22,555 nt of DNA from a virus. Of this stretch, positions 2,402 through 22,289 are shown in pieces. The translations under genes were made by a program, and so were the position numbers. The first letter of the stretch is position 1; every line of letters begins with the position of its first letter. The notes below the pieces were generated by a model, which was not told the origin of the DNA, did not search any database, and saw nothing but the letters and a program-made list of their open reading frames with translations. The stretch covers positions 3,893-26,447 of the IMG/VR virus record IMGVR_UViG_3300030110_000468; one strand, given 5' to 3'.

Positions 2402-2920
2402 ATGGAGCCAGAATATGACGAATTCAATAGCCCCATTCCTGGACAATCTTTAACAGACGAGCCTGGTAAATGGTCGTGGGAAAAGCCACCACAGCATGCT
2501 TCATTTGAAGAGGCAGCTGATGCTACCATGGATAAAATATTTAACAATCAAAGTACAAAAAATATTATAATGATGCTTGAGGCTGGCTTACCTGTTGAGG
2601 GTATTGCAAGAACTATAGTTTTTGCTGGCTTTCAAGCTGGTGCCTACACAGTTGATGTTGCTCTTTTACTAACAAGATTAGTTACAGAAGCTGTATTAAC
2701 AATTGGTACCATAGCAGAAATTGATAATATGAGATTAAGCATGACACCAGAAGATCCAGAACAAAATGATTTTGAAGTTGGAATGGCAGATGCACAATTT
2801 ATAAAATTTTTATCAGAAAGAACAGAAAAAGATATTGGAAAAATAAAAGAAGTACAAGAAAAAGAAGAAGAACCCACTGAAAGTTTAATGTCAAGACCAA
2901 CACAAGAAGAGGATGAATAA
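2402..2920 (+). CDS. Putative minor virion protein, acidic (172 aa)
   Basis: The N-terminus is Pro/Trp-rich (PGKWSWEKPPQHASF). The centre (about residues 50-110) is an amphipathic to hydrophobic helical stretch (GIARTIVFAGFQAGAYTVDV, then ALLLTRLVTEAVL) that could associate with membrane. The C-terminus is strongly acidic, ends with an ESLMSRP motif and has a run of Glu. The tail reads like other small marine phage virion proteins I recall, but I cannot name the family. The TGG-containing start of the next gene overlaps the stop (TAATG at 2918-2922). Its place between two ejection-type genes suggests a membrane-contacting part of the ejection machine; this is inference. Confidence 0.7.
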   Translation: MEPEYDEFNSPIPGQSLTDEPGKWSWEKPPQHASFEEAADATMDKIFNNQSTKNIIMMLEAGLPVEGIARTIVFAGFQAGAYTVDVALLLTRLVTEAVLTIGTIAEIDNMRLSMTPEDPEQNDFEVGMADAQFIKFLSERTEKDIGKIKEVQEKEEEPTESLMSRPTQEEDE

Positions 2921-4839
2921 TGGTTGATTTAAAAAGATTACTAGTGCCAGCTGCAACAGGTGCCCTTGGAAGTTTACTTGCAAGGCAAGAAAAAGAAAAG
3001 CAAACTGAAGAAGATCTTATTGCTGAAGGAGAACAAGCAGGAGCAACTTTAGTTCTTAATACAGTAAATGATGCTAGAAGGCAAACAGGAGATCAGCAGT
3101 CTATTAAAAATAATCTCTTTGACACTATGAAGAATAATTATGAAATATTAAAGGGTCAATATGGGCCTGACAAAGAAGATGATTTAGCTTTATTATATTT
3201 TAAAAATCGTACTTTATTTAAGATGGATGATATAAGTAAGGCAAAAAATTTAATAGACAGTTACATGCTTACAGGTTTATCTGGTGATATAACAGGAGAA
3301 GGTGCAAATCAACAGTTTGCTCCAGCTGGAGATATAACAGGAGATACTAAAGAAATAAAAAGTATATATGAAGTTTATGGACAAGGTGCCACTGTAGGAG
3401 ATATAATAAAACAACAAAGAGATACCTATAATAAACAAGTTAACACAGGTCTTGCTAATTTAACTGGAGAGAATGCTAGTAAATTATTTGTACAAGATTT
3501 TGTGCAACCTGGGGTTGTTAGTAAAAGTGCATTTGATTCACCTCAATATACAGAGGGAAGAGTAAGCCAAGAACAATTTTTAACAAACATAAATGATATT
3601 GTAGATAAAGCTACAATGGACGACCTGCCTAATATGAATTTAACTAAAATGGCACAGACAGTAAACTGGGTTCCAAGGTTAACTAAACAAGATTTAGATA
3701 TGGCAGCATTTAACGCTGTACCAGGAATGGGTGCACAGGCAGATCTATTAAGAGAAAAATATAAATTTAGCTATCAGCTACAAACTGCACAAACTATGAT
3801 GCTACAATCTCCTAATGTATCTACTATTGGAGAAGCTATTGATATAGCAAGGGCTGAAGGACGTATATCTCAAAACAGTGTTATGAACTCTTTAAGCACA
3901 TTAGAAAGGGCAATTTCCGATTATACAATTAATACGATCGCTGAATTAGCAAGAGATCCTCTTAATCCTGATACTCAAATTATTAACAGATACAATCAAG
4001 ATCCTGAAGGTTCTATAGATGTTGACGGAACACAAGTCTCAAATAAAAAACTATATGACGATGTTGTATATAGATACAGAGAAACTGCAATTGCTGAATA
4101 TAGAAATCAAGGTTACTATGATTTATTTGGCCAATTTAAAAATCCTGGAGATGATCCTAGATTAAATGTAAAAGTTCTTGTAGATGTTAGAGATAACGCA
4201 GAAGCACCTTTTACAGAAAAGCAAATAACAGGATCTATTAATCCACAAGTATTACCTGATGGGGGATTACAAATTGTAAATCCAAAAGATATTTATGAAA
4301 CAATTAATATTGTAGATGCTAGAGATTTATTTGGTATCTATTCTCCTGATGGCAGTAAGCAATTAGTTGGAGGAGATTCTGGAGTATTCTCTGGCATGAG
4401 TCCAAATAATCGTGACCTGCTTAAACAGGAAATAGTAAACTCATCTGGTGGCATGGAAGCTATTCAGCCATTCTTAAACATGTCACAAGAAGAATTTGAA
4501 GTGTACAATAAAAAGAAAGCAGAAGATCCTGATGTAATACCTACTTCTATAAATATAGATAATTATGAAGAGTTCTTACCTCCTTCTAAACTTAACGTTA
4601 GAAACACAGAAGAGCCAAACCCAGAGTTATTATCTTGGGCTTCAGAAAATATGGGAGCTTGGGAGTCATTTGTTAATTCATTTAATGTGCCAAAAAAAGA
4701 AAATTATCCAGAGGATGAGCAAAATTTCGAGGGGCAGTATGGAGAAGACTTAAGATTCTACAATAAAAATATAGTAGACTTTAAACGACAACTACCTAAA
4801 ATAAAAAAATTCTTAGCACGAGCTAAAGATACAGAGTAG
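2920..4839 (+). CDS. Internal virion protein, gp15-like position (639 aa)
   Basis: A 639-residue, mostly helical protein with a short hydrophobic N-terminus (LLVPAATGALGSLLARQ) and a charged C-terminus rich in Lys and Asp. There is no catalytic motif, signal peptide or clear transmembrane helix. T7 gp15 is 747 residues and lies just before the giant gp16; here the order and size are similar, so a role in the ejection tube that crosses the periplasm is the best guess. The assignment is by synteny, not by a motif I can see. The ATG overlaps the stop of the preceding gene, and three bases separate its stop from the next ATG, which fits coupled translation of the virion set. Confidence 0.6.
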   Translation: MVDLKRLLVPAATGALGSLLARQEKEKQTEEDLIAEGEQAGATLVLNTVNDARRQTGDQQSIKNNLFDTMKNNYEILKGQYGPDKEDDLALLYFKNRTLFKMDDISKAKNLIDSYMLTGLSGDITGEGANQQFAPAGDITGDTKEIKSIYEVYGQGATVGDIIKQQRDTYNKQVNTGLANLTGENASKLFVQDFVQPGVVSKSAFDSPQYTEGRVSQEQFLTNINDIVDKATMDDLPNMNLTKMAQTVNWVPRLTKQDLDMAAFNAVPGMGAQADLLREKYKFSYQLQTAQTMMLQSPNVSTIGEAIDIARAEGRISQNSVMNSLSTLERAISDYTINTIAELARDPLNPDTQIINRYNQDPEGSIDVDGTQVSNKKLYDDVVYRYRETAIAEYRNQGYYDLFGQFKNPGDDPRLNVKVLVDVRDNAEAPFTEKQITGSINPQVLPDGGLQIVNPKDIYETINIVDARDLFGIYSPDGSKQLVGGDSGVFSGMSPNNRDLLKQEIVNSSGGMEAIQPFLNMSQEEFEVYNKKKAEDPDVIPTSINIDNYEEFLPPSKLNVRNTEEPNPELLSWASENMGAWESFVNSFNVPKKENYPEDEQNFEGQYGEDLRFYNKNIVDFKRQLPKIKKFLARAKDTE

Positions 4840-4842
4840 TAT

Positions 4843-7800
4843 ATGGCTGAATATGGTAAAATTAAGAGTATCACTGAGGTACCTCTTGAGGAACGTGATA
4901 ACAGAATATTATATAATGTCCCGGGATATCAGTTTGGTGTGCCAGAAAAGGTTAACTACTGGAGTGATGATGCTGGTACTATACAAGAAAAATTAAACTT
5001 AGACTATATACCATTTGTTGAAGAGCCTAAAACTACAGAATTAGGTAAAGCTGCAAAGTATGGATTCTCAAGTGCACTGTCAGGTGCAGTATATAATATT
5101 AGTGGTATACCTGGATGGACAGATGCTCTTGCAGATTACACACTAGAAAAACTAGGTGCTAATCCTGATCAATGGAAGTTTGATTATGTTAATGGTGAGA
5201 ATATTGCTATAGATACTAATCAAGGTACATATGCAGAAAGAGAAGTTTTAAAACAAAAGATACTTGAGAAAGAAAAGTTTAAGAAATCGTTAGATGAAAA
5301 CTCATTAAAGAGTTTTGCATTTCACACATTGGCAGGAATAGACAGTGCAGAAGATTATCTAAGAGACACAGCAGAAACTCTTGGCCCTCAACATATGTTT
5401 AACCTAGGTCAAGACTTTGTACCTGATACAATAGCAGAACAAGTTGTTGCAGGATTTGCTGGTGCTCCTATAATGATAGCTGAGTATGGTGCCTATACAG
5501 CTGGTGCCATAGCTGGTTTAGCTGCAGTTGGAATTCCTGGTGCAGTTGTTGGTGGATCTGCACTTGCATTTGGTACTGTAGGATTTTTAGGATCATACGA
5601 ACAGCCTTGGGAAAAAGTATTTACTAATACAGCATTAGGAACTATTGAAGGTGCTGCATTTGGTAGTGTAGGTATGCTACCTGGTTGGGCAACACGATCT
5701 GTAGCATTAGGTGCTATTGGTGCAGCTTCTGCTAAGATGCATGGTGGTGGTGCAACAGAAGTTATATCTGGTGCTATTACACTTGCAGGATTAGGATTTG
5801 CTGGCCCTATGATAGGATTAAAAAGGCCAGGTGAAGGTGCATTTACTGCTCCTCCTAAAGAGACTCTAACATTAACGCCTGCTTATGCCTCACTAAGAAA
5901 TGATGCTGGAAGATTAACAGCACATTCTGAAACTTTATTTACTTTTATAAAAGGTAATGGAAAAGGATACCATAGAGAGACTGAGCCAATACCATTTGAA
6001 TTTACTGAGCTATCTAAAAAAGAATTAACTAAAAGAGATAAGCGTGATAAAGTAATGCCAGATACTGGCAATGTTGAATTACTTATACCAAGTAAAGCAA
6101 CTAAACGTGCTATAGAAGAAGGTAGAAATTTAATACCGTTTAAGAGAGTAAAACCAGAAACAAAGAAAGAAAATCTTGATGTTTCAAAAGGTGAAAAAGA
6201 AACTACAGAAAGGGTAACTATACCTAGAGATCAAGTTATACTTGATGGCAAATATTTAGATATGACATTTCATATCAATGCTAGAACTAAAAATATTGTA
6301 CCAATTAGAAAAACACCAGAAGTAAAAAAACCTAAAACATCATTTGAAGATCTTAATTTATCATTAGAAGCTAGAAGTAGTAACAGTAGAGTAGCTGCAG
6401 AAAATGTAAGTATAGCTAGAGATCTTGCAAAAACTCATGGGTTAAAGTTTTTAGGAGATGGTGCAAAGGTAGAGATTAAATTAAGTCAAATACAAAAGAT
6501 TGCTAAGTCTAGAAAAAAAGGAGATGCTTGGGCTAAAGGGCTTTTACCAAAAGCATTAGAGTTAAAAACTAAAAAAGAATCACAATTAACTAAAAGACTT
6601 ACAATATATAAAAAATCTATAGATAAAGTACAAAAACATATAGCCAGACTTGCAGTTGCTAGTATTAATCTAAGGCCTGATCCAGGTGAATCACCAATAA
6701 AACACTATAGACAATTAGAAGATACTTTACTAAATGCAGAAAGAACAGGGTTTAAATTAGACAAAGATGGCAAGCCTGTTGAAGTAGATCTTACTGGTAA
6801 TGTTAAAGGAACTACTGGTAAGATATTAAGTTTTGTAGAAACATTTGGATTGCCTGCTAAACTTGCAGGAGATCCATCTAAAAATGCATTTTTAAGATTT
6901 GTAACAACTGGTGTTAAAAATACACAACGTGCTATTGAGGCAGGTAAAGATGATATTCTATATAGAAGACTAATAGATCCATCTTATAAGCCAGATAAAA
7001 TGAAGTTTATTGAAGAAAATCCTGGAATATTTCAAGGTGGTGTACTATATAACTTTGGAAATATCATTGGTAAAATACAAACATTCAAAAGTAAAGACGG
7101 TGCTTGGACTCAGTTTGAACAGTTACTAAAAGAAAGAGGTAAAGAAAAAGGTATTGAGTCTGCTACTAAAATAATTAATGCAATGGTAGAACGTGAAGTT
7201 CTAATGCAAAGTTTAGCAAAAAAAGCAGTTGGTAAAAAGGCAAGTAAAGAAAAGATAGAACAAGAATTACTTTCTAAGAGAGACGATGGCTCATTTAAAT
7301 ATCAAATGGATTATAAAGAAATGAAACGTTTATATAAACTTTCTGCAAACGAAGTAGGAATTATAAAAAATTTAGATAAAGGTCTTGCAGAAGCTAGAAT
7401 ATATCACAATAAAGCTGTAGAACAAAACCCTGAAGTTGGGGCTACTATTATACCAGAACGTCCTAACTACTTTCCTAGAACTTGGATAGGCAGACATAGG
7501 TTATATATTAAAGAACCAGGTAAAGATGGCAACGTTGTGCATGCTATAGCTGGTAAAACAGAAAAAGAAGTGTATGGTGTATTTAATACTTTTATAAAAA
7601 AGAATCCTGAATACAAAAATTATGAAGTTAACTATGAGTTAAAATCTGATTTAGCTGTTGGTGGTAAAAGAGAAAATATGAATTTATCTTTTGATGAGTC
7701 TATTAGATTGTGGGACAAAAAAAATCCAGAGATTGCAACATTACTAAAACAATCTCAAAAAGATTATAATGCTACAAGAGGGTTTGGTGCAAGAAAAGTA

Positions 7801-9807
7801 GCAAGAAAAGATGTTGGTGGATACGCAGGTACAGGTAAAGAAGGCCGTAGATTAATAGAAGAATTTACAGAAGCATACATAGGTTATGTTGATGGTGCAG
7901 TTAGATCAGCAGAAGCTATAAGATTTAGAGCACAAGTAGATCCTGTAGTATCTGGAAGAAGTGCATTTAATGACCTAATACCACAACAGGTTACGTTTGC
8001 TAAAAAATATGTAGATAATGCTTTTGGTAGAGATGCCAGTTTTATTGCTAAAAAGGGGGACAAACTTATTGAAACTATAGCAGACTCTGCTATATTTAAA
8101 AAGTTTTCAAGTCCTAATACTTTTCAAAAAGCAATACAGGTAGCTAACTCCTTTACATTACATAAGGCATTACTATTTTTTAACCCAAGATTCTTATACT
8201 CTCAGATAGTTCAGCCATATCAAATGGGCATGCAACGACTTCAATTTATGAAAGTGGAATATGGAATTAAAGGAGACGTAGGTAAGGCTGTAGTTGAGGG
8301 ATCATATCTTCCATTTAAACCTACAAAAGAGTTTAGAGAATTAGTAGTAGATGCATTAAGAACTGGCACTATTGACACAAAGTTTTTAAAAGAGTTTGGC
8401 TTAGATACACGAACAGGTGAAAGAATAGTAACTGTTACTGAGTCTATGGTTAATAAAATGTTTGAGCGTGCAACTGGTAAAAGATTATCAGAGATAGCAG
8501 AGAGGCATAGTAGATTAACAGCACTAGCCATGAACTATTCTTTCTTAAAAAGTGGCAAGTATGATGTAACTAATGGTAAACAGAATATGTTTAATACTGC
8601 AAAGTGGATGACAGATAATATGATGGTTGAGTATAATTTTACTAACAGACCTATGATGTATACCCACCAAGGATTAGGAACTATTGGATCTTTGTTTGGC
8701 TTATTTAAAACATTTCAACATAACTATTATGGTCAAGTTGCACAGTACGCTAGAACATGGGCAAAAAATCCTAAATCATTTGAAGCTGCTAGTCCTTTAC
8801 TAATGCATGCCACAAGTATGGTTATGACGGCAGGATTATTTGGTATTATGGCAGTAAACCAAGTAGATTACTTACTAAGAAAAATGAATGATGGTGTTCA
8901 GTTTGGATTGAAAGCTGCTAAAGTAGATAACCCTAGTCAGTATAGAATACCAGAGTATACTGAAACAGTATTAAAATTAGACATAGCACCAGAGCAAAAG
9001 TTTGGACTACCGTCTGGAATATTAGGTGTTGACGTATCATCCACACTAGCTGCACCAGGCCTTGGCCCTGGAGATATATTTAGTTTACCAACATTAGATG
9101 CTTTGTTTGGTATGACATCAAAAACAAATGAAGGTGTTATAGGTAATGCATTTAACGTAGTAATGAAAGCTGCTACAGGAACATACAGTGATGTTGATAT
9201 GTACAAATTTTTAAAGTCATCAATGCCAACTGTATTACTAGCGGATGTTGAAAGAAGATTTTCTGGAGTATCAGGAGAGGCTATGTTCTCTGTGATACCA
9301 GGATTTGAAAAAGAATCAAAAGTTCCAAGAGATGTTACAGATGAAAGAGGCATGTATTTTCAGTTTAAAGAAGGAAAATATGTTGTTACCAATCCATATA
9401 AAAATATGAGAGGGCAAATTGAAAGAGACATTGGAGGTTTTTGGGCTAGGTATTTAGGTGGTCGTACATTTGAGGAGTCCATTATATTAAAAAGTATATG
9501 GCAAAGTACAAAGATAAGCATGAACCAAAAAGATAAAATTAATGCTCTAGTTACTGCAGCTGCATCCGATGGCTATGATGGTTTATATGATAATATAATG
9601 TTCTACACAGATAGTGCTATGGATTTAGGATATACTCAAGACCAGTTTATAGAGAAAGTTACTAATAGAATGGAGACTATGAGTAATACAGTTCTAGGTA
9701 GATTAAAAGCATATGGTGATAGGCACAATATGACACGAGATGATTTTATAAGATCAGTTTTACACAACAATAATATTATACTGGCATACCCGCCAGGTTC
9801 AAAATAG
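4843..9807 (+). CDS. Giant internal virion protein (gp16-like, 1654 aa)
   Basis: At 1654 residues this is the largest protein of the window and is longer than T7 gp16 (1318). Residues about 200-326 are a Gly/Ala-rich hydrophobic block with several possible membrane passes (GAVVGGSALAFGTVGFLG). Residues about 480-700 are Lys-rich helices. A segment near residue 875 has NYFPRTWIGRHRL. Near 1105-1130 is LHKALLFFNPRFLYSQIVQP. A second hydrophobic stretch lies at about 1317-1345. T7 gp16 starts with a lytic transglycosylase domain; I see no such catalytic motif here. The probable role is to cross the inner membrane and help thread DNA at infection. The hydrophobic blocks, the size and the position after the 639-residue protein support this. 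Confidence 0.68.
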   Translation: MAEYGKIKSITEVPLEERDNRILYNVPGYQFGVPEKVNYWSDDAGTIQEKLNLDYIPFVEEPKTTELGKAAKYGFSSALSGAVYNISGIPGWTDALADYTLEKLGANPDQWKFDYVNGENIAIDTNQGTYAEREVLKQKILEKEKFKKSLDENSLKSFAFHTLAGIDSAEDYLRDTAETLGPQHMFNLGQDFVPDTIAEQVVAGFAGAPIMIAEYGAYTAGAIAGLAAVGIPGAVVGGSALAFGTVGFLGSYEQPWEKVFTNTALGTIEGAAFGSVGMLPGWATRSVALGAIGAASAKMHGGGATEVISGAITLAGLGFAGPMIGLKRPGEGAFTAPPKETLTLTPAYASLRNDAGRLTAHSETLFTFIKGNGKGYHRETEPIPFEFTELSKKELTKRDKRDKVMPDTGNVELLIPSKATKRAIEEGRNLIPFKRVKPETKKENLDVSKGEKETTERVTIPRDQVILDGKYLDMTFHINARTKNIVPIRKTPEVKKPKTSFEDLNLSLEARSSNSRVAAENVSIARDLAKTHGLKFLGDGAKVEIKLSQIQKIAKSRKKGDAWAKGLLPKALELKTKKESQLTKRLTIYKKSIDKVQKHIARLAVASINLRPDPGESPIKHYRQLEDTLLNAERTGFKLDKDGKPVEVDLTGNVKGTTGKILSFVETFGLPAKLAGDPSKNAFLRFVTTGVKNTQRAIEAGKDDILYRRLIDPSYKPDKMKFIEENPGIFQGGVLYNFGNIIGKIQTFKSKDGAWTQFEQLLKERGKEKGIESATKIINAMVEREVLMQSLAKKAVGKKASKEKIEQELLSKRDDGSFKYQMDYKEMKRLYKLSANEVGIIKNLDKGLAEARIYHNKAVEQNPEVGATIIPERPNYFPRTWIGRHRLYIKEPGKDGNVVHAIAGKTEKEVYGVFNTFIKKNPEYKNYEVNYELKSDLAVGGKRENMNLSFDESIRLWDKKNPEIATLLKQSQKDYNATRGFGARKVARKDVGGYAGTGKEGRRLIEEFTEAYIGYVDGAVRSAEAIRFRAQVDPVVSGRSAFNDLIPQQVTFAKKYVDNAFGRDASFIAKKGDKLIETIADSAIFKKFSSPNTFQKAIQVANSFTLHKALLFFNPRFLYSQIVQPYQMGMQRLQFMKVEYGIKGDVGKAVVEGSYLPFKPTKEFRELVVDALRTGTIDTKFLKEFGLDTRTGERIVTVTESMVNKMFERATGKRLSEIAERHSRLTALAMNYSFLKSGKYDVTNGKQNMFNTAKWMTDNMMVEYNFTNRPMMYTHQGLGTIGSLFGLFKTFQHNYYGQVAQYARTWAKNPKSFEAASPLLMHATSMVMTAGLFGIMAVNQVDYLLRKMNDGVQFGLKAAKVDNPSQYRIPEYTETVLKLDIAPEQKFGLPSGILGVDVSSTLAAPGLGPGDIFSLPTLDALFGMTSKTNEGVIGNAFNVVMKAATGTYSDVDMYKFLKSSMPTVLLADVERRFSGVSGEAMFSVIPGFEKESKVPRDVTDERGMYFQFKEGKYVVTNPYKNMRGQIERDIGGFWARYLGGRTFEESIILKSIWQSTKISMNQKDKINALVTAAASDGYDGLYDNIMFYTDSAMDLGYTQDQFIEKVTNRMETMSNTVLGRLKAYGDRHNMTRDDFIRSVLHNNNIILAYPPGSK

Positions 9808-13371: not shown

Positions 13372-13598
13372 TATATCCTTTCTATAATCTGCTTTATGTC
13401 ACCATTTAGTTTCATTGTATTCTCAATACAATGCCTAACTACACTTGCCAATAAGTTAGCATAAAAAATTTCGTCTATATCTTCTAGGCTTTCTTTTATC
13501 TTATCTGGCGAAATGTAGTCCAGGCTTATTGCTATCTGACTAGAGTCAGTCAGATTAACATCCATTCTAAAAAGTTGTGAATTATTTTTTTGCATCAT
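13371..13598 (-). CDS. Hypothetical protein (75 aa)
   Basis: A 75-residue soluble, acidic protein with a beta-strand-like N-terminus (FRMDVNLTDSSQIAISLDYI) and a helical C-terminus (DEIFYANLLASVVRHCIENT). No motif is recognised. It overlaps both neighbours: its start lies inside the end of the upstream gene, and its TAA shares a base with the next ATG. This supports expression from the same polycistronic message. It may work with the adjacent TSCPD-like protein, but that rests on adjacency only. Confidence 0.7.
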   Translation of the reverse strand: MMQKNNSQLFRMDVNLTDSSQIAISLDYISPDKIKESLEDIDEIFYANLLASVVRHCIENTMKLNGDIKQIIERI

Positions 13599-13791
13599 CT
13601 GTAGGTTTCGCTACAAAATCTGCACCTACATTTGGATCAAGCTCTCTTAATCCTCGTGATAGCACTTCAATACCTTGTACTACTTCTCCATATGGTCTTG
13701 TAAATAGGTAGCGAAGTATGCTCTGAACCTGCGATCCAGATATGATGTAATGTTTGTCAACTAACTGTTGCTCTTGCTGTTTCTCTGACAT
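13582..13791 (-). CDS. Hypothetical protein, marine phage family (69 aa)
   Basis: I choose ATG 13791 because it has a perfect AGGAG five bases upstream (minus strand, 13797-13801). An in-frame ATG at 13824 with GAGG four bases upstream would add 11 lysine-rich residues and would be coupled to a preceding micro-ORF, so both starts may be used. The product begins MSEKQQEQQLVDKHYIISG and contains ILRYLFTRPYGEVVQGIEVL, a helix-turn pattern I recall from short marine phage proteins of unknown function. It is soluble, with no cysteines. Its end overlaps the next gene by 17 bases. Confidence 0.7.
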   Translation of the reverse strand: MSEKQQEQQLVDKHYIISGSQVQSILRYLFTRPYGEVVQGIEVLSRGLRELDPNVGADFVAKPTDDAKK

Positions 13792-13820
13792 TTTATCTCC
13801 TGTTTTTTTAAATTTTTCTT

Positions 13821-13922
13821 TCATATATCCTCAAATATACAAACATTTAGGTCTTCTAATACTAACACCCCAGACTGACCCACTTTCTGCTGTGTGTTAA
13901 GATATGGCCGTTTAATCACCAT
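13821..13922 (-). CDS. Micro-ORF, 33 aa, bridging two genes
   Basis: On the minus strand an ATG at 13922-13920 overlaps the final codons of the SpeD-like gene. The frame stays open for 33 codons to TGA at 13823-13821, which overlaps the ATG at 13824 in the form ATGA. It therefore fills what would otherwise be the only sizeable gap here (about 92 bases), with overlaps at both ends as between the other genes. The product (MVIKRPYLNTQQKV..., ending VCIFEDI) is a soluble peptide with no known motif. The ribosome site is weak (AGGA directly at the ATG), so translation by reinitiation is more likely. It could also be a chance frame. Confidence 0.45.
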   Translation of the reverse strand: MVIKRPYLNTQQKVGQSGVLVLEDLNVCIFEDI

Positions 13923-14311
13923 TCCTGTATTTTTAGTCCCTCTTCATCGTTTATACCTCCATTTCTATCTAGTAATCTATACTTTATCTTAGTTGCATCA
14001 AAAGTATTCTTAATTTTATTAATGACTAAAGATTTATCAAACTCTTTACATGAGTATAGGTCTGCTTGAAGTATACCCCACTCGTTCCATATGTGCATAG
14101 ACGCATGGCTTGTCTTTAATAGTATAGCAGATGTCCAACCTACATTTCCTAAGTCGCTTACCCAAGATGATATGGGACCTTTGGCTACCTTCATGTCTAC
14201 ATCCTCAACTAAACTTGTCATAAAATTTTCAACAACATCTTCCTCATTCTCATTGGGAAATTTATTTATTATAGCATTAACTAATAAATGCTTATGGTCT
14301 GGTTTAATCAT
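13916..14311 (-). CDS. speD-like: S-adenosylmethionine decarboxylase-like (SpeD family) protein
   Basis: At 131 residues it matches the length of class 1B bacterial SpeD. The key motif TSHASMHIW contains S68, the position of the self-cleaving serine that becomes the pyruvoyl group (S63 in Thermotoga maritima). H73 lies five residues on and C88 twenty residues on (DLYSCKEF), the same spacing as H68 and C83 of that enzyme. The residue before the serine is Thr rather than the usual Glu. SpeD makes decarboxylated AdoMet for spermidine synthesis, and some homologues are known to act on other amino acids, so the substrate is open. The gene sits in the replication operon; polyamines bind DNA, and a role in DNA packaging or host metabolism is inferred. 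Confidence 0.75.
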   Translation of the reverse strand: MIKPDHKHLLVNAIINKFPNENEEDVVENFMTSLVEDVDMKVAKGPISSWVSDLGNVGWTSAILLKTSHASMHIWNEWGILQADLYSCKEFDKSLVINKIKNTFDATKIKYRLLDRNGGINDEEGLKIQEW

Positions 14312-14553
14312 TACTCTGCTTCCCTTTCTGTCTCTACATGTAACACTTCAACTATTAACCTATTTAAGTACCACTGTGCTTTCTCTAGATCCTGCACAGG
14401 CTGTCGTTTATACTTATACCTGGCCATGTATTTCATACATGCACCTTTTAAATATCCATGAAACTCTTCAGTGGTCATTGACTCTCTAATTAACTCAATA
14501 GTTTCAGTATTGGATTGCCTATAGTGCTCTGGAAAATTTACATCATCTGCCAT
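14311..14553 (-). CDS. DUF3310 domain protein (T7 gp1.7 nucleotide-kinase-like)
   Basis: The 80-residue protein has the full DUF3310 pattern: VNFPEHY at residues 5-11, then IELI, GACMKYMARYKYK at 37-49, and DLEKAQWYLNRLI at 55-67. The family is common in phages and includes the C-terminal part of T7 gp1.7, a nucleoside monophosphate kinase whose loss gives dideoxythymidine resistance. Stand-alone copies like this one are shorter and their activity is not established. It overlaps the metallophosphoesterase stop by ten bases and the next ATG at one base, inside the replication operon. A role in nucleotide supply is plausible. Confidence 0.85.
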   Translation of the reverse strand: MADDVNFPEHYRQSNTETIELIRESMTTEEFHGYLKGACMKYMARYKYKRQPVQDLEKAQWYLNRLIVEVLHVETEREAE

Positions 14554-15283
14554 ATCTTTTCTTTACCTCCTGAATATTTACAGTTTCAATATCATACTCT
14601 CCACCTTTTACATTACGTTTAACTATAAGTCCACTCCACCATAGCCTCTGTGTATTATATGCGTATGCTTCTCTATGAGTTAAGTAACAACCTGCAGATA
14701 ATCCCATTATCTTTTTACCAGATGGCTTAGATGCAATGGCATAGTCCAACAGATGAGAATGCCCAACAGTAGATGATACTTTGTTTTTATTTACTAGAGC
14801 TCTAGCCATGTTCTCTCCAGAGATAGCTGTACCCATAACACCACTAGGAAAATTATGTGAGTAGTATACTCCATCAATTACAGCAGGATATCTATAATCA
14901 TATGTATGCCACCCATACTCTGGATACTTTAGATCTTCTATAGTCATGTGGCCTTCAAGCTCTGGGTTATCTTCTACCATACGAAGTATACGATCTTCAT
15001 GATTACCCAATAACATATGCATCTCTGCATCATGCTTACCTATACCATCATTAAACTTTTGTAGTGCATCATGCGTATGCTCTATATCTTTTTTATATCG
15101 CCTACCTTCAAATGACTTTTTCTTTCTATCGTAGCTAGACATAGAGTCCATACTTGCAAAGTCTCCCATACAAATTACTTTATCTACTTTTAAATCTTTA
15201 GCCATTCTACCTGCCCAGGTAAATCTTTCATTACTAGCATGTGGTGTACAATGGGGGTCTCCTATTACTAAATGTGTTGTCAT
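14543..15283 (-). CDS. Metallophosphoesterase (calcineurin-like)
   Basis: The 246-residue protein shows the complete metallophosphoesterase motif series in order: D9-x-H11 (IGDPHC), G40-D41 (CMGDF), GNHE at 93-96, H143 in YSHNF, and GHSH at 174-177. These residues hold two metal ions and the family cleaves phosphomonoesters or phosphodiesters. No membrane anchor or signal peptide is present, so it acts in the cytoplasm. Its place among DNA and nucleotide genes suggests nucleotide or nucleic-acid end processing, or removal of a cyclic-nucleotide defence signal, but the substrate cannot be read from the sequence. It starts at ATG 15283, sharing one base with the upstream stop. Confidence 0.9.
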   Translation of the reverse strand: MTTHLVIGDPHCTPHASNERFTWAGRMAKDLKVDKVICMGDFASMDSMSSYDRKKKSFEGRRYKKDIEHTHDALQKFNDGIGKHDAEMHMLLGNHEDRILRMVEDNPELEGHMTIEDLKYPEYGWHTYDYRYPAVIDGVYYSHNFPSGVMGTAISGENMARALVNKNKVSSTVGHSHLLDYAIASKPSGKKIMGLSAGCYLTHREAYAYNTQRLWWSGLIVKRNVKGGEYDIETVNIQEVKKRYGR

Positions 15284-15771: not shown

Positions 15772-16131
15772 CTATTCTCCTTTGTTTGTTTCTTTTATAA
15801 TACCTATAAATGACATACAGTCAAGTACTATAAGGGGTTTCCTGCCATTCATTTTTAAAACTACAGCAGGTTCTAGTTTAGAATTTGAAATTGATTGGTC
15901 ATAAGCATCATACAATCCTTTCCAAGTTTCCTTATTCTTACATTCAATAGAGAATGGGAATAACTTTTGGGCTTTTTCAGAGAGCTTGATATCTATACCA
16001 GACTCTCCCATGATAGCACACCATACATCTGCGTCTACCTTTAAGCTAGGGAACGCACCAAGTAGTGCGTCCCTAACCCAGTTTTGAAGCCTTCGCCCCT
16101 TGGCTTTTCTACTGCGTATACTAGGAGTCAT
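15772..16131 (-). CDS. PD-(D/E)XK endonuclease, possibly resolvase-like
   Basis: The 119-residue protein starts with basic residues (SRKAKGRRLQNWVRDALL). The nuclease core follows: MGESGIDIKLS around D47, then IECKN with E63-x-K65, and a conserved Gln at 79 (AYDQS). Spacing D-15-E-x-K fits the PD-(D/E)XK fold used by Holliday junction resolvases, VRR-NUC proteins and T7 endonuclease I-like enzymes. In a phage replication operon it probably cuts branched or recombining DNA, or clears host DNA. Family rank within the fold is uncertain. It overlaps the upstream exonuclease by 11 bases. Confidence 0.75.
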   Translation of the reverse strand: MTPSIRSRKAKGRRLQNWVRDALLGAFPSLKVDADVWCAIMGESGIDIKLSEKAQKLFPFSIECKNKETWKGLYDAYDQSISNSKLEPAVVLKMNGRKPLIVLDCMSFIGIIKETNKGE

Positions 16132-17014
16132 AGTCCTCTACCCTAGGATTACTAACCTTAGTATACCAAACCCATTTAGGGTTTTTAGCTTGCGATTGCT
16201 GTTGTGGCAGCATCTGCAAGTTTTCTCCCCAACAAGGAAACTTGTAAGGGCAGAAACTACATGCCGTACCTAGAACTTTATTGCCTGTCTTCTGTTTTCT
16301 AAAGTACTCATCTTCATCTTTGAAACATCTTTTAAATTCTTTGTCTAAAGTTATAGCTCTTATATTATTGTCAATATCACTGATTGCTTTTTCTTTATAC
16401 TCATCATCAGCCATTGGTGCCTCTGTTAACACCCACTCTCCTGTAGATTTATTAATCACTATCCACCCACCAAATGGTTTTTGCCTAGCCTCTGCATACA
16501 TATAACCCTGTGCTAGGTATCCAAACAGATCATCATCTGCTACTGCATGGAACCCGCCATTCTCTCCAAACTTATTAGTGAATGACCAGGGAGATGCACT
16601 TTTAATATCCCATACTTTATCCTCAATCTCTACATCAAGTGTGCCATTTACACTTGTGCCATCAAGTTTATACTCTGTCTTTGTCTGCTCTGATTGTATC
16701 TCTACTCCAGATGCTTTCATAATTATCATAGCAGCTTGCTCTACTAAGTCACCAAAAAAGTTTCTCATCTTAAAATTATATGGCTGTGACTCTCCTTTAA
16801 CACCTTTCTTTTCCATTTGCAGTTGACATAAAGGTCTTCCGATGTTTGATGCCCTAAGACCAAACTCTTTTTTTCTTTGGTCAGTAAATTGCTTGCGGAA
16901 TGAATCAGCACAAGCCTTACCAAACTGGTCAATCAAATCATCGGATACCTCAACCGCATCTTTCGATGCGGCCTCAAGAAACACCCTAACTTTTTCTAGG
17001 ATGTCTGAACTCAC
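16121..17014 (-). CDS. Cas4/RecB-like exonuclease with probable [4Fe-4S] cluster
   Basis: A 297-residue PD-(D/E)XK nuclease. Motifs in order: C63 (PLCQLQ), GDLVE at 88-92, GTLDVEI with D127, WDIKSAS with D136-x-K138, QGYMYAEAR (Q169 to R177), and ACSFCPYKFPCW with C252-x2-C255-x5-C261. One early and three late cysteines around the nuclease core are the Cas4/AddB arrangement that binds an iron-sulphur cluster. Such enzymes resect DNA ends. No CRISPR array or cas1/cas2 is visible, so this is a phage recombination or genome-processing exonuclease, next to an SSB-like protein and a second nuclease. The start ATG overlaps the stop region of the SSB-like gene. Confidence in the fold is high; the Fe-S cluster is inferred from cysteine spacing. 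Confidence 0.85.
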   Translation of the reverse strand: MSSDILEKVRVFLEAASKDAVEVSDDLIDQFGKACADSFRKQFTDQRKKEFGLRASNIGRPLCQLQMEKKGVKGESQPYNFKMRNFFGDLVEQAAMIIMKASGVEIQSEQTKTEYKLDGTSVNGTLDVEIEDKVWDIKSASPWSFTNKFGENGGFHAVADDDLFGYLAQGYMYAEARQKPFGGWIVINKSTGEWVLTEAPMADDEYKEKAISDIDNNIRAITLDKEFKRCFKDEDEYFRKQKTGNKVLGTACSFCPYKFPCWGENLQMLPQQQSQAKNPKWVWYTKVSNPRVEDYDS

Positions 17015-18121: not shown

Positions 18122-18210
18122 GCAATTATATTAATAATAACTAAAACAAATATTACCACAAATGCTAGCAAATCAAATAAACTAAATGCAAAACGTTCAA
18201 ATTTTTTCAT
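18118..18210 (-). CDS. 30-aa single-pass membrane micro-protein
   Basis: An ATG at 18210-18208 overlaps the DNA polymerase stop (ATGA). The frame stays open for 30 codons to TGA 18120-18118. The product is MKKFERFAFSLFDLLAFVVI followed by ten more hydrophobic residues, so nearly all of residues 9-30 form one membrane helix behind a basic N-terminus. An AAAGGA ribosome site lies seven bases upstream. It fills most of the gap after the polymerase. I recall similar tiny membrane proteins in marine phage replication operons, with no known function. Length is short, but the coupling, ribosome site and clean topology support it. Confidence 0.6.
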   Translation of the reverse strand: MKKFERFAFSLFDLLAFVVIFVLVIINIIA

Positions 18211-20270
18211 AAGACTATCCTTTCTTTTTTTAAATTTACTTCGTCCATATCTAACCAATTATCTCCCATTTTTAACTCAGTGTCAAGTGGCACATTAAAC
18301 TCTATATTGTACACATCATAGAGATAATCTGTAACTCCAGCAGTGGCCTTGTCTAGAATAGAAGTCATAAGTTTAAACTCATCTGGATGTGCGTCAACTA
18401 CTATGGAGTCATGTACAGTATTTATTAGTAAGCTCTTTACTTTATTTTCTTTCATCATTTTATATGCGTTAATGCATGCTATAGGAACTATGTCTGCTGT
18501 AGCAAAACCCTGTACAGGATAGTTCTTAATCTGTGTAGAATAACTAGATCCACCCCAGGCTTGCCTTTGTGCATAAGGAAAAGAATACTCACGGCCTGAT
18601 GGTATCTTAATCTTTTTATATTGTATAGCATTACTCTGTAAATTCTCATGCCAGTTAGCTATATCTTTGTACTTCTCAAGAAATGCTTTGTAGTATCTCT
18701 TCTCATCTTCTGTTCCTGACATGCCACCATATAAAGGTTTAAAGGTATGTGCCTTTGCCTCTTGCCGTGAAACTCCTATGGTGTCAGCGGTAAACTGGTG
18801 AACATCAACACCATCATCAATATCTTTCATGCCTTGCTTGTCTTGTGCTAGGAACACAGCAGTTCTAAACTCTAGCTGCGAGAAGTCTATTTCCATAATC
18901 TTTCCACCCTTAAACCTGGATGATATAACTTTTCTTATTGGAAAAGTATTTCCCCGGGGTTGATTCTGGAAGTTAGGATCTCTGCTGGATAGCCTTGCTG
19001 TTGCTGTAACACATTGCATAAACTTAGGATGAAGTATATTATCTGCATTTACATGATCTCTCATACCATTTACAAATGTATTTAGATATGTATCAATTGC
19101 ATTATATCTTATGATAAGATCAACAAACTCTTTAAGATCTCCTTGTGCTCTCATTGACAATCGTCTCAATGTATCCCTATCTGTTTTAAATCCACCCTCT
19201 GCAACTTCGGATACACCAATAGGAAACTGATTAAAGCCTGCAGTTCTGCTAAGTTTTAAGTAAAGAGTACCACCATCACATACGTCACACTTACTTAAGT
19301 TTTTGTAAGGGTCTCCATTAACTTTGTATCTTCTTATAAGGCCTTGACCAGAACACCTACTGCACTGAGACGCTGTAGTTTTTTTTATAACTTCTGTATT
19401 AGCCATTATCATATCTTTAAACTTTGACTTTGATAATGTTGGTCGTTTCTTTTTTCTCTTGGTAAATTTATCTATGCCTATGTTAAAGTCATTAGCCCAT
19501 CTCTTTTTATCAACAACTTTTCTTGAGTATATTAGCCACGATAGTTGCTCGGTGCTTGACGGATTGATTGGTGTATCCCCCATCTTCTCCCATATTATTT
19601 TCTTTATCTGCTGTGCAAGTAGTCCAAACTCTTCTTTAAACTGTTGCTCCACAGAATCAAGGGATTCTAGGTCAATATTTATACCGTTCATCTCCATGTC
19701 TGCAAGCACAGGTAAAAACTCTCCCATCATCTTTACAGATTTAAGAAGGCATCTATTATTTTCTTTTTTAAAATCTGACATCTGAGAATCAAACAGAGCT
19801 CTAGTGGATACTACATCCTGTCTTCCATATTCCTCTATGATATCCACAGGTATATCTTCAAATGATATTTTGTCTTTCATGTACTGATCTACAGCATCAG
19901 ATTTTTGTGCTATACTTCTACGTTTACATATCTCTTTTAGAGATAGTGGCTTACGCAATCCCCGTAGTAATACATACTCACCTATCATTGTATCATACAA
20001 TCTACCATCATACTTAAATCCAGATTCAAGTAGCCATACTAAATCAAACTTAATATTGTGACCAACTAACAGTTTAGTCCTATCAAGAATATCTTGAACT
20101 GCCTTATGATTAGCCTGTATGTCAAAGCTATTATGATTGTGATTAAAAAAATAGTACTCGTCATTAACACCGATACTAACCAAACAGTTATTTGGATTGA
20201 ACGGTAAAGGATCTACCTTGCCACCATCTTTAATTTGAAAGCTAGTTTCTACATCTAATACTGTGATCAT
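18207..20270 (-). CDS. DNA polymerase, family A, with 3'-5' exonuclease
   Basis: The 687-residue protein copies the phage genome. The exonuclease domain (1-185) has D6-x-E8 (VLDVETS), N72 and D76 (GHNIKFDLVW) and Y148...D152 (YGRQD), so proofreading should be intact. The polymerase domain has motif A at 460-470 (EIDFSQLEFR, D462), motif B at 502-515 (RQEAKAHTFKPLYG, with F510 at the E. coli F762 position) and motif C at 620-622 (HDS, where most families have HDE). Between them, residues 303-331 carry CSRCSGQG and CDVCDGGT, a DnaJ-like pair of CxxC motifs in the thumb region. It is close to T7 gp5 in size (704). Its ATG overlaps the helicase stop (ATGA). Confidence 0.96.
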   Translation of the reverse strand: MITVLDVETSFQIKDGGKVDPLPFNPNNCLVSIGVNDEYYFFNHNHNSFDIQANHKAVQDILDRTKLLVGHNIKFDLVWLLESGFKYDGRLYDTMIGEYVLLRGLRKPLSLKEICKRRSIAQKSDAVDQYMKDKISFEDIPVDIIEEYGRQDVVSTRALFDSQMSDFKKENNRCLLKSVKMMGEFLPVLADMEMNGINIDLESLDSVEQQFKEEFGLLAQQIKKIIWEKMGDTPINPSSTEQLSWLIYSRKVVDKKRWANDFNIGIDKFTKRKKKRPTLSKSKFKDMIMANTEVIKKTTASQCSRCSGQGLIRRYKVNGDPYKNLSKCDVCDGGTLYLKLSRTAGFNQFPIGVSEVAEGGFKTDRDTLRRLSMRAQGDLKEFVDLIIRYNAIDTYLNTFVNGMRDHVNADNILHPKFMQCVTATARLSSRDPNFQNQPRGNTFPIRKVISSRFKGGKIMEIDFSQLEFRTAVFLAQDKQGMKDIDDGVDVHQFTADTIGVSRQEAKAHTFKPLYGGMSGTEDEKRYYKAFLEKYKDIANWHENLQSNAIQYKKIKIPSGREYSFPYAQRQAWGGSSYSTQIKNYPVQGFATADIVPIACINAYKMMKENKVKSLLINTVHDSIVVDAHPDEFKLMTSILDKATAGVTDYLYDVYNIEFNVPLDTELKMGDNWLDMDEVNLKKERIVL

Positions 20271-21475
20271 ACTCTATACCTTGATAGTTGTGGCTCAATG
20301 TTACAAGTAATCTCTCCATGATATCCAGATATCTTATTCTTACTTATGCACATAACCCTAGTAGTATCCAAGGAATCTAAAGTACCATGCTTACCTATAC
20401 CTATAATTAAATCTGCCTCTGCAGCTTTACCTGTCTTTGAGTTCTCCATCATATCAAAGGATATTCTGGTCTTACCATGTGCATCTGCTGATGCTTGTGA
20501 TATTGCTACCACACAACACTCGTGTCGTTTAGCTATCTCTCTTGCCCCTGTGTATACAGCTCTAAGTTTCTCATCCGTTCTAGTAAAATTACCAGACATA
20601 TTAACTTTATCTAGCTGATCAATGACAAGTATATCGGGCTTGTGATGCTTACAAAAACTATCGACATCATCAATAGTCCAATCAACAGTGTCCAAAAGTT
20701 TAACATTATCTTTTATCTCCTTCCATTTTTCTTTTGCTAAATCCATATTATCTATTATCTCATCTTTTGTCATGCCTGTATGTGCATTGATGACTCTCAT
20801 CTGAGTACGGACTGCAGGTTCTTCATTTATTAATGCACAGACTTTCGCACCTTGCGATGCAAAACCTTGTAGCCCACCAACAAGATTAACCCAGAATGCA
20901 GTCTTACCTGACTCTGGCCTTGCAAACACAATAACTAAATTGCCAGGTCCAATACCTGGAACTTGTTCTTGTAAACTTGGTAGGTTAAATTGAAATTTAG
21001 TTTGTATATCTAATGAGTCTATAAGTTCTGGTATATCTTCCGTAACTGATTGGTGCTCATCTGCTTCTTCTTCTGTGCCATCTAATAACTGTTTGATTTC
21101 ATTAAAAGATTTGTCTTGTCCGTTAAATATATCTGTAGCTATAACTGCAACTTTGTGTGCTAAGTTTCTTTTATGTACAGCTTCAATAATATCTGAAGCA
21201 ACTGCTGCGTTAGGCTCTTGCTCTTTCTTTATCTCTTGTACTAAAGTTTCAAAGTTTAATTTAGCTGCCCTTGTAAGTGCAGGATTATACTTTTCTGTAT
21301 GTAAATTTATAAGATCATCTATAGTTAGATCATCTTCATAATCATGATGTGCTCTTTCTATTGTAGAAAAAAAGTTTCCTAATCCATTACTAAATGTAGT
21401 CTTAGATACTTTACCTTTATTCTTTTCATAAAAATTTTTTTTGAGTAGTAATTTAATTAGCTGTCGTTCTTGCAT
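20267..21475 (-). CDS. Replicative DNA helicase (DnaB/gp4-type RecA fold)
   Basis: The 402-residue protein has a helical N-terminal part (1-165) and a RecA-fold ATPase from about 170. Walker A is ARPESGKTAF at 185-194, the catalytic glutamate is in NEEP (218-219), Walker B is ILVIDQLDK (D286), and a DNA-contact segment has ISQASADAHGKTRISFDMM (325-343). The C-terminus includes GKAAEADLIIGIGK, the arginine/lysine-finger region of the DnaB group. It unwinds DNA ahead of the polymerase. In T7 the primase and helicase are one protein (gp4); here the primase is a separate gene upstream, overlapping by 19 bases. The N-terminal region may bind the primase. Confidence 0.93.
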   Translation of the reverse strand: MQERQLIKLLLKKNFYEKNKGKVSKTTFSNGLGNFFSTIERAHHDYEDDLTIDDLINLHTEKYNPALTRAAKLNFETLVQEIKKEQEPNAAVASDIIEAVHKRNLAHKVAVIATDIFNGQDKSFNEIKQLLDGTEEEADEHQSVTEDIPELIDSLDIQTKFQFNLPSLQEQVPGIGPGNLVIVFARPESGKTAFWVNLVGGLQGFASQGAKVCALINEEPAVRTQMRVINAHTGMTKDEIIDNMDLAKEKWKEIKDNVKLLDTVDWTIDDVDSFCKHHKPDILVIDQLDKVNMSGNFTRTDEKLRAVYTGAREIAKRHECCVVAISQASADAHGKTRISFDMMENSKTGKAAEADLIIGIGKHGTLDSLDTTRVMCISKNKISGYHGEITCNIEPQLSRYRV

Positions 21476-22254
21476 AACATCTCTCTTATCTTTTGGGGTT
21501 CAAAATATTTTAAGTCATCTTCTAAAATGACCACCTTACTCTTAGATCTATACCCTAATTCTTTGGCAATGTCAAATGCCTTTGATGTTGCATCTCTATC
21601 AAGAGCTACTATGATATTATCAAACTTGTCTTGAAGTATATCTATATACTCTGTTGGTAAACTGGTACCCATAAGTGCAACTCCTGAATAGTTCTCATCT
21701 ATTCCTACTGCACAAGCTGACGCACAATCCTCTACAACAACTGCCGTAGATCCTTTGCCACAAATAAAAGGGTACGATCTACTTCCATACACATACCACT
21801 TAGGTAATGTTATAGATTTTAAAGCTCTGCCTACACCACCAATTGTTTTGCCATCTCCATCTTTTATCATGAATACAATTCTATCTCTTGCAGGATCGTA
21901 CATAATATCTACCATGTCACGATACATTGCAGTAAAAGAATTGTTAGCTCTTAAATACTTTAAACATCTATCGTTTGAATGTGGAGATGTAAAATTTCTT
22001 GGCACAGTAAATGAAATATCTAGATTATCTACAGGTCTATGTAAGTATTGCTGTATATCATGCATAGTTTTTTCTGTATTGTAAGATCCTTTTGCATCAC
22101 AAGACGCAGAGAAACAATACCATAAAACTTTTGAGTTCTCTTTGGATATAGAAAAAGTATTGTTACGCATACAAAAAGGGCAATCCATTCTTATGGAATG
22201 CCCTTCATCTACACACAAATCTTTTATAATATTTATTTGATCTAGGTAGTTCAT
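21457..22254 (-). CDS. DNA primase (zinc-binding and TOPRIM domains)
   Basis: I start at ATG 22254; a TTG at 22272 would add six residues but lies in the promoter spacer. The 265-residue protein has a zinc-ribbon with C25-x2-C28 (CPFC) and C47-x4-C52 (CFSASC), as in T7 gp4. The TOPRIM centre follows, with E175 (VVVEDCASA) and D219-x-D221 (VALDRDAT). It makes short RNA primers for the lagging strand. It is a free-standing primase; the helicase is the next gene. No Shine-Dalgarno is seen before the ATG, and a consensus promoter places the predicted transcription start on the A of the ATG, so the message may be leaderless. Confidence 0.92.
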   Translation of the reverse strand: MNYLDQINIIKDLCVDEGHSIRMDCPFCMRNNTFSISKENSKVLWYCFSASCDAKGSYNTEKTMHDIQQYLHRPVDNLDISFTVPRNFTSPHSNDRCLKYLRANNSFTAMYRDMVDIMYDPARDRIVFMIKDGDGKTIGGVGRALKSITLPKWYVYGSRSYPFICGKGSTAVVVEDCASACAVGIDENYSGVALMGTSLPTEYIDILQDKFDNIIVALDRDATSKAFDIAKELGYRSKSKVVILEDDLKYFEPQKIREMLCKNDS

Positions 22255-22260
22255 ATAAGG

Positions 22261-22289
22261 TCTATAACACAAATGTTATTTCTTGTCAA
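22261..22289 (-). promoter_or_regulatory. Sigma70-type promoter for the replication operon
   Basis: On the minus strand TTGACA (22289-22284, perfect -35) is followed by exactly 17 bases and TATAGA (22266-22261, -10). Seven bases past the -10 the transcript would begin at 22254, the A of the primase ATG. The -35 lies in the last codons of the methyltransferase. Motif quality is good but the -10 has two mismatches, so this needs a mapped start to confirm. Confidence 0.5.

Follow-up and report, generated by a model that had tools for sequence, protein, structure and literature searches.

Bacterial S-adenosylmethionine decarboxylase (AdoMetDC) of Thermotoga maritima, the product of speD, carries Glu62 immediately before its pyruvoyl serine (PMC3975893), and its residues Ser63, His68 and Cys83 supply the reference spacing for the active site (PMC10407285). 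Ser55 of the same protein, like human Ser229, is described as the likely activator of the scissile carbonyl (PMC3975893). Some SpeD homologues decarboxylate other substrates: the SpeDC ornithine decarboxylases are distinguished by four diagnostic residues (Gln, Thr, Phe and Tyr), ornithine decarboxylases have been found in speD2-speD1-speE clusters, and the proline after the HTW motif is called completely conserved in bona fide AdoMetDC (PMC10407285).

Phages encode several of these activities. The purified SpeDA of HTVC201P is active on arginine, with a Km of 0.87 mM and a kcat/Km of 290 per M per s, is inactive on ornithine and lysine, and did not restore spermidine; a further arginine decarboxylase, BAR31446, was tested by in-cell agmatine (PMC9992855). 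Five freshwater phage homologues tested in the same work and termed 'similar to' HTVC201P all use ornithine, with UCP01 also taking arginine and UCP04 a trace (PMC9992855); these five (LBP, ATV46410, and UCP01-04, QMP83838, CAB5221556, CAB4131572 and CAB4162964) were not found among the matches listed in our searches of phage collections. No SpeD homologue described in PMC10407285 or PMC9992855 used lysine. Four phages named in PMC9992855 as having a working AdoMetDC, whose proteins we matched by phage name, leaving out a fifth, uncultured phage, all have an acid at the residue before the serine (position -1, counting from the serine): Glu in S-PM2, P2559S and phiYS40, and Asp in phiN3. The phiYS40 and phiN3 proteins also lack the proline, so that its presence is an imperfect mark of AdoMetDC.

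A speD-like gene in an HMO-2011-type phage

The window analyzed here is a 22,555-nucleotide stretch of viral DNA (positions 3,893 to 26,447 of IMG/VR record IMGVR_UViG_3300030110_000468). Its relevant features, in window coordinates, are as follows.

2920-9807, plus strand: large, probably structural proteins of 639 and 1654 aa, neither of which matches a PHROG
13582..13824, minus strand: 80-aa gene, function not assigned, downstream of speD
13916..14311, minus strand: speD-like gene for a 131-aa protein, the predicted proenzyme of a pyruvoyl-dependent arginine decarboxylase (SpeDA type)
14048..14050, minus strand: C88, counterpart of T. maritima C83
14093..14095, minus strand: H73, counterpart of T. 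maritima H68
14108..14113, minus strand: T67-S68, predicted site of cleavage (T67 codon 14111-14113, S68 codon 14108-14110); S68 is the presumed pyruvoyl serine
14132..14134, minus strand: T60, at -8 from S68, aligning with T. maritima Ser55 and human Ser229
14311..14553, minus strand: DUF3310 gene immediately preceding speD, with a one-base overlap between its stop and the speD start
14543..15283, minus strand: metallophosphoesterase
16121-17014, minus strand: Cas4-domain-type exonuclease near the replication genes (PHROG 1990, E 4e-26; no Pfam match)
18207..22272, minus strand: HMO-2011-type phage genes for DNA polymerase, helicase and primase

The window polymerase is 62% identical to that of pelagiphage HTVC033P, the closest isolate among the matches listed, and 37-42% identical to those of Roseobacter CRP phages and HMO-2011 among the same matches. 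HTVC033P, a SAR11 phage assigned to HMO-2011-type subgroup IX (PMC9038755), shares with the window the order primase, helicase, polymerase, exonuclease homologue, metallophosphoesterase and DUF3310, but has no speD after DUF3310. A search with the window protein at E 0.01 finds 23 phage records, of which 11 are Pelagibacter, 5 Sinorhizobium, 4 Synechococcus, 2 cyanophage and 1 uncultured; that of HTVC033P is not one of them. Subgroups VII-IX are described as probable pelagiphages with 31.9-35.4% G+C (PMC9038755), and the G+C content is 35.0% in the window and 33.3% in speD. The window phage is a marine member of the HMO-2011-type group and probably infects SAR11.

Nineteen contigs carry a speD relative at least 61% identical to the window protein, and DUF3310 directly precedes speD in all of them; the 80-aa gene follows in 18, and the nineteenth ends inside speD. 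Comparison of the window speD with 10 relatives gives dN/dS of 0.09-0.24, with dS above 1 in 8 of the 10 pairs, and the gene is under purifying selection. A separate viral lineage (L306:7706-8387, L311, L313 and L315), with a SpeD of the LLQTSH type, likewise shows speD immediately preceded by a DUF3310 gene (32-33% identical), which suggests that the two genes may travel together.

An earlier note on this DNA had proposed a candidate polyamine gene beside DNA genes, and its position next to the phage replication module agrees with that description. A scan of 21 window proteins, speD included, found no second phage polyamine gene in this part of a record that is itself a 26447-base fragment. 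The literature searched, which excluded supplements and most subscription journals, contained no co-mention of HMO-2011 and adenosylmethionine decarboxylase, and nothing on speD as an auxiliary metabolic gene of SAR11 viruses; the words adenosylmethionine, speD and polyamine do not occur in the main text of PMC9038755, which describes the HMO-2011-type phages.

Family membership, fold and active-site residues

The window protein matches Pfam PF02675 (AdoMet_dc) at 54.7 bits (cut-off 25; E 1.5e-14) and PHROG 3125, S-adenosylmethionine decarboxylase, at E 2e-16, and its best matches in a sequence search of the PDB are solved AdoMetDC structures, the first at E 1.1e-4. Its score against the NCBIfam equivalog TIGR03330 is 46.1 bits, under the cut-off of 75.65; the tested phiN3 AdoMetDC has a 99% identical counterpart in phiM12, which likewise falls short of that cut-off, at 29.2 bits. 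An AlphaFold2 model built from 61 sequences has a mean pLDDT of 89.4 and a pTM of 0.83, with residues 123-131 below 50. The best solved Foldseek matches of the model are the T. maritima and A. aeolicus AdoMetDC (E 1.8e-7 to 2.2e-6), superposition on T. maritima SpeD 1vr7_B gives Z 15.2 and an rmsd of 2.3 over 112 residues, and the top matches in a viral fold library are SpeD-family or unnamed. The sequence matches lie far above chance, and sequence and predicted fold agree in placing the protein in the class 1b SpeD/AdoMetDC superfamily.

The serine, the histidine at +5 and the cysteine at +20 are spaced as in T. maritima S63/H68/C83; of the WPE motif, the Trp (W75) and the Glu (E77) are retained. 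The window protein resembles bona fide class 1b AdoMetDC (T. maritima 1TLU/1VR7, and the B. subtilis type of TIGR03330) in fold, Ser/His/Cys triad and spacing, but differs in having Thr67 in place of Glu62 and Asn76 in place of the proline (+8), in scoring under the TIGR03330 cut-off, and in falling in another clade. The serine is invariant in the 61-row alignment A4, and among Thr-type sequences (those with Thr at -1) the histidine is present in 224 of 224 and the cysteine in 223 of 223 that are ungapped there. The codon positions and the T. maritima spacing bear out what the earlier note had read from the DNA, namely S68, H73 and C88 at bacterial SpeD spacing with Thr in place of Glu before the serine, and the predicted structure shows the AdoMetDC fold, whose absence the note had named as a refutation. 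The interval that it gave, 14087-14125, holds T67, S68 and H73; C88, although numbered correctly, lies outside it.

The residue before the serine across homologues

A profile run over 395 loci returned 431 matches, of which 308 were distinct (187 from viral contigs, 60 from the genome search, 48 from genome contigs, 12 from phage records, and the window protein). At -1, 225 of them have Thr, 71 Glu, 6 Asn, 2 Asp, 2 Gln, 1 Tyr and 1 Phe, a sample skewed to Thr since most queries carried Thr; two Pfam-family searches, limited to the best 30 loci per search by score, yielded 30 and 29 distinct sequences, 8 of them with Thr in each case. The proline at +8 is absent from 220 of the 225 Thr-type sequences and present in 62 of the 71 with Glu. 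A unique or decayed site, considered as an explanation of the threonine, was rejected given its presence in 225 of 308 homologues of this Thr-skewed sample.

Two large groups stand out among the Thr-type sequences, and those outside them are mixed. One, of 69 distinct sequences, is marked by Gln at -5, by Phe at +6 and by Tyr or Phe six residues before the cysteine, which we take as the SpeDC signature, its positions being inferred from the text of PMC10407285 and our own alignment rather than from Figure 8 of that paper. The other, of 137 distinct sequences with Gln six before the cysteine, includes HTVC201P SpeDA and the window protein. The window protein has one of the four SpeDC diagnostics, the Thr, with Ile for Gln, Ile for Phe and Gln for Tyr at the inferred positions. 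The SpeDC ornithine decarboxylases of PMC10407285 are like it in the Thr before the serine and, for the most part, in lacking the proline at +8. Threonine at -1, common to the HTVC201P group and the SpeDC-type group, is a normal mark of arginine- or ornithine-decarboxylating SpeD relatives and no anomaly.

Two sets of sequences combine these marks differently. The Sinorhizobium phage SpeD (L042 / L404), which in phiN3 is a tested AdoMetDC, has the SpeDC-like Gln, Phe and Tyr, but Asp, not Thr, at -1. Three loci (L239, L241 and L242), which belong to the same phylum as a Thermoplasmatales MAG, have Glu at -1 and lack the proline; related marine archaeal proteins, of which these three may be examples, are reported to be arginine decarboxylases (PMC9992855).

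Phylogenetic placement

In a first tree of 117 representatives and 112 columns, the window protein shares a 32-row clade with HTVC201P (support 100/98; the bootstrap had not settled, at 0.979). Rows with fewer than 75 aligned residues had been removed beforehand, as had those more than 62% identical to a retained row. Except for one SpeDC-type change (2 changes), the rows with the SpeDC signature group on their own, with phiM12 branching at the base of their clade, and the AdoMet-type rows are not one clade (10 changes). A second tree of 81 rows and 115 columns, without L205, L194, the Asn-, Gln-, Phe-, Tyr- and D_P-type rows and 25 of the 37 AdoMet-type rows, again unites the window protein and HTVC201P in one clade (100/94), with each of the three groups on one side of a branch when 12 ungrouped rows are not counted. 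Both trees were built without the five tested phage ornithine decarboxylases and BAR31446.

Holding the window's three rows with the SpeDC rows, which were assigned by signature and include no tested enzyme, is 79 log units worse (p-AU 0.0005), and holding them with the AdoMet-type rows is 143 log units worse (p-AU 9e-41); these p-AU values are somewhat generous because the groups were named after the first tree. Forks within the HTVC201P clade did not resolve and point to no source of the window gene. The suggestion in the earlier note that the enzyme acts on a different substrate, arginine or ornithine, is well supported by this placement and by the AU rejections.

HTVC201P SpeDA (AXH71538, L035) shares with the window protein the SpeD family, Thr at -1, His at +5, Cys at +20, Ser or Thr at -8, Trp at +7, Glu at +9, Gln six before the cysteine and the lack of a proline at +8; both phages are marine, and HTVC201P has a SAR11 host, as the window phage probably does. 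The two proteins are about 31% identical, and differ at -2 (Glu in HTVC201P, Lys in the window) and in the loop after the WDE motif, two residues longer in HTVC201P. HTVC201P belongs to the Autographiviridae and its gene adjoins RNR genes, whereas the window speD follows DUF3310 in an HMO-2011-type genome.

Cellular relatives

A genome scan recovered 46 cellular loci, mostly gammaproteobacterial and alphaproteobacterial/Pelagibacterales by title. Fourteen genomes were picked from these; each is a MAG or a single-cell genome whose completeness is not stated, and absences therefore carry little weight. An agmatine deiminase family match is present in 9 of the 14, an arginase/agmatinase family match in 4 and at least one of the two in 10; a PLP ornithine/arginine decarboxylase domain is found in 11, and spermidine synthase scores over the cut-off in 7. 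The four genomes titled Pelagibacterales, Pelagibacteraceae or HIMB59 all have agmatine deiminase, and none has spermidine synthase over the cut-off.

In six of the seven genomes with spermidine synthase over the cut-off the clade gene adjoins it. The two are divergent in G003, G004, G005, G011 and G012 (one such gene was scanned), and three of these five genomes have a second, weak AdoMet_dc match elsewhere. G014 has a three-gene run (L049:3998-5748) of a Thr-type SpeD homologue, a SpeD with the WPE motif that scores 132.5 bits to TIGR03330, and spermidine synthase. This cellular context fits an agmatine- or a putrescine-making enzyme, without choosing between them, and the bacterial members that adjoin speE could still have AdoMetDC activity.

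Two of these three second matches, in gammaproteobacterial-titled genomes (L396:556-1203 and L397:103-852), were read and are SpeD-like proteins of 215 and 249 aa, for which the best model is the E. coli-type SpeD at 41.9 and 37.3 of 255.8 bits, far under the cut-off. Eight ORFs of 437-472 aa with an AdoMet_dc domain (L199:415-1815 (+), L201-L205, L208 and L209) come from the phylum of G001, a Parcubacteria-titled MAG; their serine is preceded by Asn, Gln or Thr and followed by Asn. L199, the one scanned of the eight, joins a branched-chain polyamine synthase domain (BpsA_C, E 4.6e-42) to AdoMet_dc in a single protein.

A predicted cleavage site with no adjacent acid

HTVC201P SpeDA reads ETSH at its cleavage site, and most Thr-type sequences are similar: the -2 residue is Glu in 197 and Asp in 1 of the 225, leaving 27 without an acid. 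In the window's clade it is Lys or Ser (12 distinct sequences; Lys in the window), and 15 further Thr-type sequences outside the clade also lack the acid. A glutamate merely shifted by one place would account for the 197 (plus the one Asp) but not for the window's clade. All 12 distinct clade sequences keep the Thr, Ser, His and -8 hydroxyl, and all 11 that reach the Cys keep it. Having no acid at -1 or -2 is an unusual feature that is common to a whole conserved clade. Ser or Thr occupies -8 in 224 of 224 ungapped Thr-type sequences (138 Thr, 86 Ser), and also in 68 of 71 Glu-type sequences, so that this hydroxyl is not special to Thr enzymes.

The earlier note had also supposed that the chain might self-process differently. 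The activity of a pyruvoyl enzyme implies self-processing, so the active HTVC201P enzyme indicates that Thr at -1 is no bar to it, and the threonine alone gives no argument for the supposition. The window chain would cleave itself between T67 and S68 to yield the pyruvoyl group, with the T60 hydroxyl, at the position of T. maritima Ser55 and human Ser229, polarizing the T67 carbonyl and H73 completing the step after the ester intermediate. With these roles for T60 and H73 the general-base Glu of AdoMetDC would not be needed, the -8 hydroxyl presumably carrying activation when Glu is absent. The mature enzyme would form a Schiff base with arginine and release CO2, and C88 would protonate the product agmatine, the His and Cys roles being carried over from AdoMetDC. 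Enzymes for agmatine-to-putrescine conversion and homospermidine synthesis are reported for Pelagibacter (PMC9992855), and such enzymes of the SAR11 host could use the agmatine during infection.

A broader proposal, which we offer tentatively and think rather doubtful, is that the -1 residue is the substrate switch of phage SpeD, an acid specifying AdoMet and Thr the basic amino acids, and that the window's clade activates itself with no acid at -1 or -2, through the -8 hydroxyl and His only. Such a substrate rule cannot hold across the whole family, given the archaeal-type, SpeDA-like L239, L241 and L242 with Glu.

Which substrate?

We favor the reading, with a probability of roughly 0.58, that the product of the window gene is a class 1b pyruvoyl arginine decarboxylase, a member of the HTVC201P (SpeDA) clade that feeds host putrescine synthesis; most likely the polyamine gene is of a known kind and the phage lineage carrying it is new. 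This reading rests on the activity of HTVC201P on arginine and the place of the window protein in its clade, on the rejection of the SpeDC and AdoMet-type groupings together with the single SpeDC diagnostic and the missing AdoMetDC proline, and on the acid at -1 in all four tested phage AdoMetDC and the agmatine deiminase in all four Pelagibacterales-type genomes, none of which has speE over the cut-off. Several points weigh against it: only two members of the arginine group have been tested, HTVC201P at about 31% identity and BAR31446; the window's clade lacks the Glu that HTVC201P has at -2; and a PLP ornithine/arginine decarboxylase domain is encoded as well in 11 of the 14 genomes. The HTVC201P-like freshwater phage homologues, moreover, are ornithine decarboxylases (PMC9992855), and the clade gene sits beside spermidine synthase in six of seven genomes, ornithine decarboxylases being known from speD2-speD1-speE clusters. 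A pyruvoyl ornithine decarboxylase with SpeDC-like activity, making putrescine directly, would suit those five freshwater enzymes, the Thr that is also the rule in the 69 SpeDC-signature sequences, and the run of clade gene, speD and speE in L049; with Ile, Ile and Gln in place of three of the four SpeDC residues, separation from the SpeDC clade and an AU rejection at p 0.0005, we judge it unlikely.

The AdoMetDC name carried by the Pfam and PHROG family matches, the retention of W75 and E77, and the adjacency of clade genes to spermidine synthase in 6 of 14 genomes would be explained by a bona fide AdoMet decarboxylase working with the host spermidine synthase. The lack of an acid at -1 and of a proline at +8, the TIGR03330 score of 46.1 against 75.65 bits (a threshold that phiM12, at 29.2 bits, fails too), the AU value of 9e-41, and the absence of speE over the cut-off from all four Pelagibacterales-type genomes make this improbable. 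The phiN3 SpeD, a tested AdoMetDC, is like the window protein a class 1b phage SpeD without the WPE motif, but has Asp at -1 and lies at the base of the SpeDC-signature clade, where it is placed through the 99% identical phiM12 copy. Loss of self-processing, leaving a non-catalytic role such as binding or a prozyme-like partner, is quite unlikely: a site with no acid at -1 or -2, where 198 of 225 Thr-type sequences have one at -2, might suggest it, but decay should have cost some of the residues kept in 12 of 12 (Cys 11 of 11) sequences, and dN/dS is well below 1. Little probability likewise attaches to another amine-bearing substrate, such as lysine or an unusual SAR11 metabolite, for which a distinct subclade with its own invariant residues and a loop after the WNE motif two residues shorter than in the HTVC201P-type rows of alignment A1 might speak, and against which stands the lack of lysine use by any SpeD homologue described in PMC10407285 or PMC9992855.

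Implications

If the arginine decarboxylase reading is correct, these phage genes would form part of a natural set of enzymes bearing on the role of the AdoMetDC cleavage-site Glu in processing and substrate choice, and phiN3, an enzyme with Asp at -1 and AdoMetDC activity at the base of the Thr-type SpeDC clade, would be the natural test case of the reading of -1 as a switch. The automatic label 'AdoMet decarboxylase' would then probably be wrong for these phage genes, and phage pyruvoyl amino-acid decarboxylases would extend from Autographiviridae pelagiphages to the HMO-2011-type phages, described as dominant in the ocean, where they would occupy a fixed genome site.
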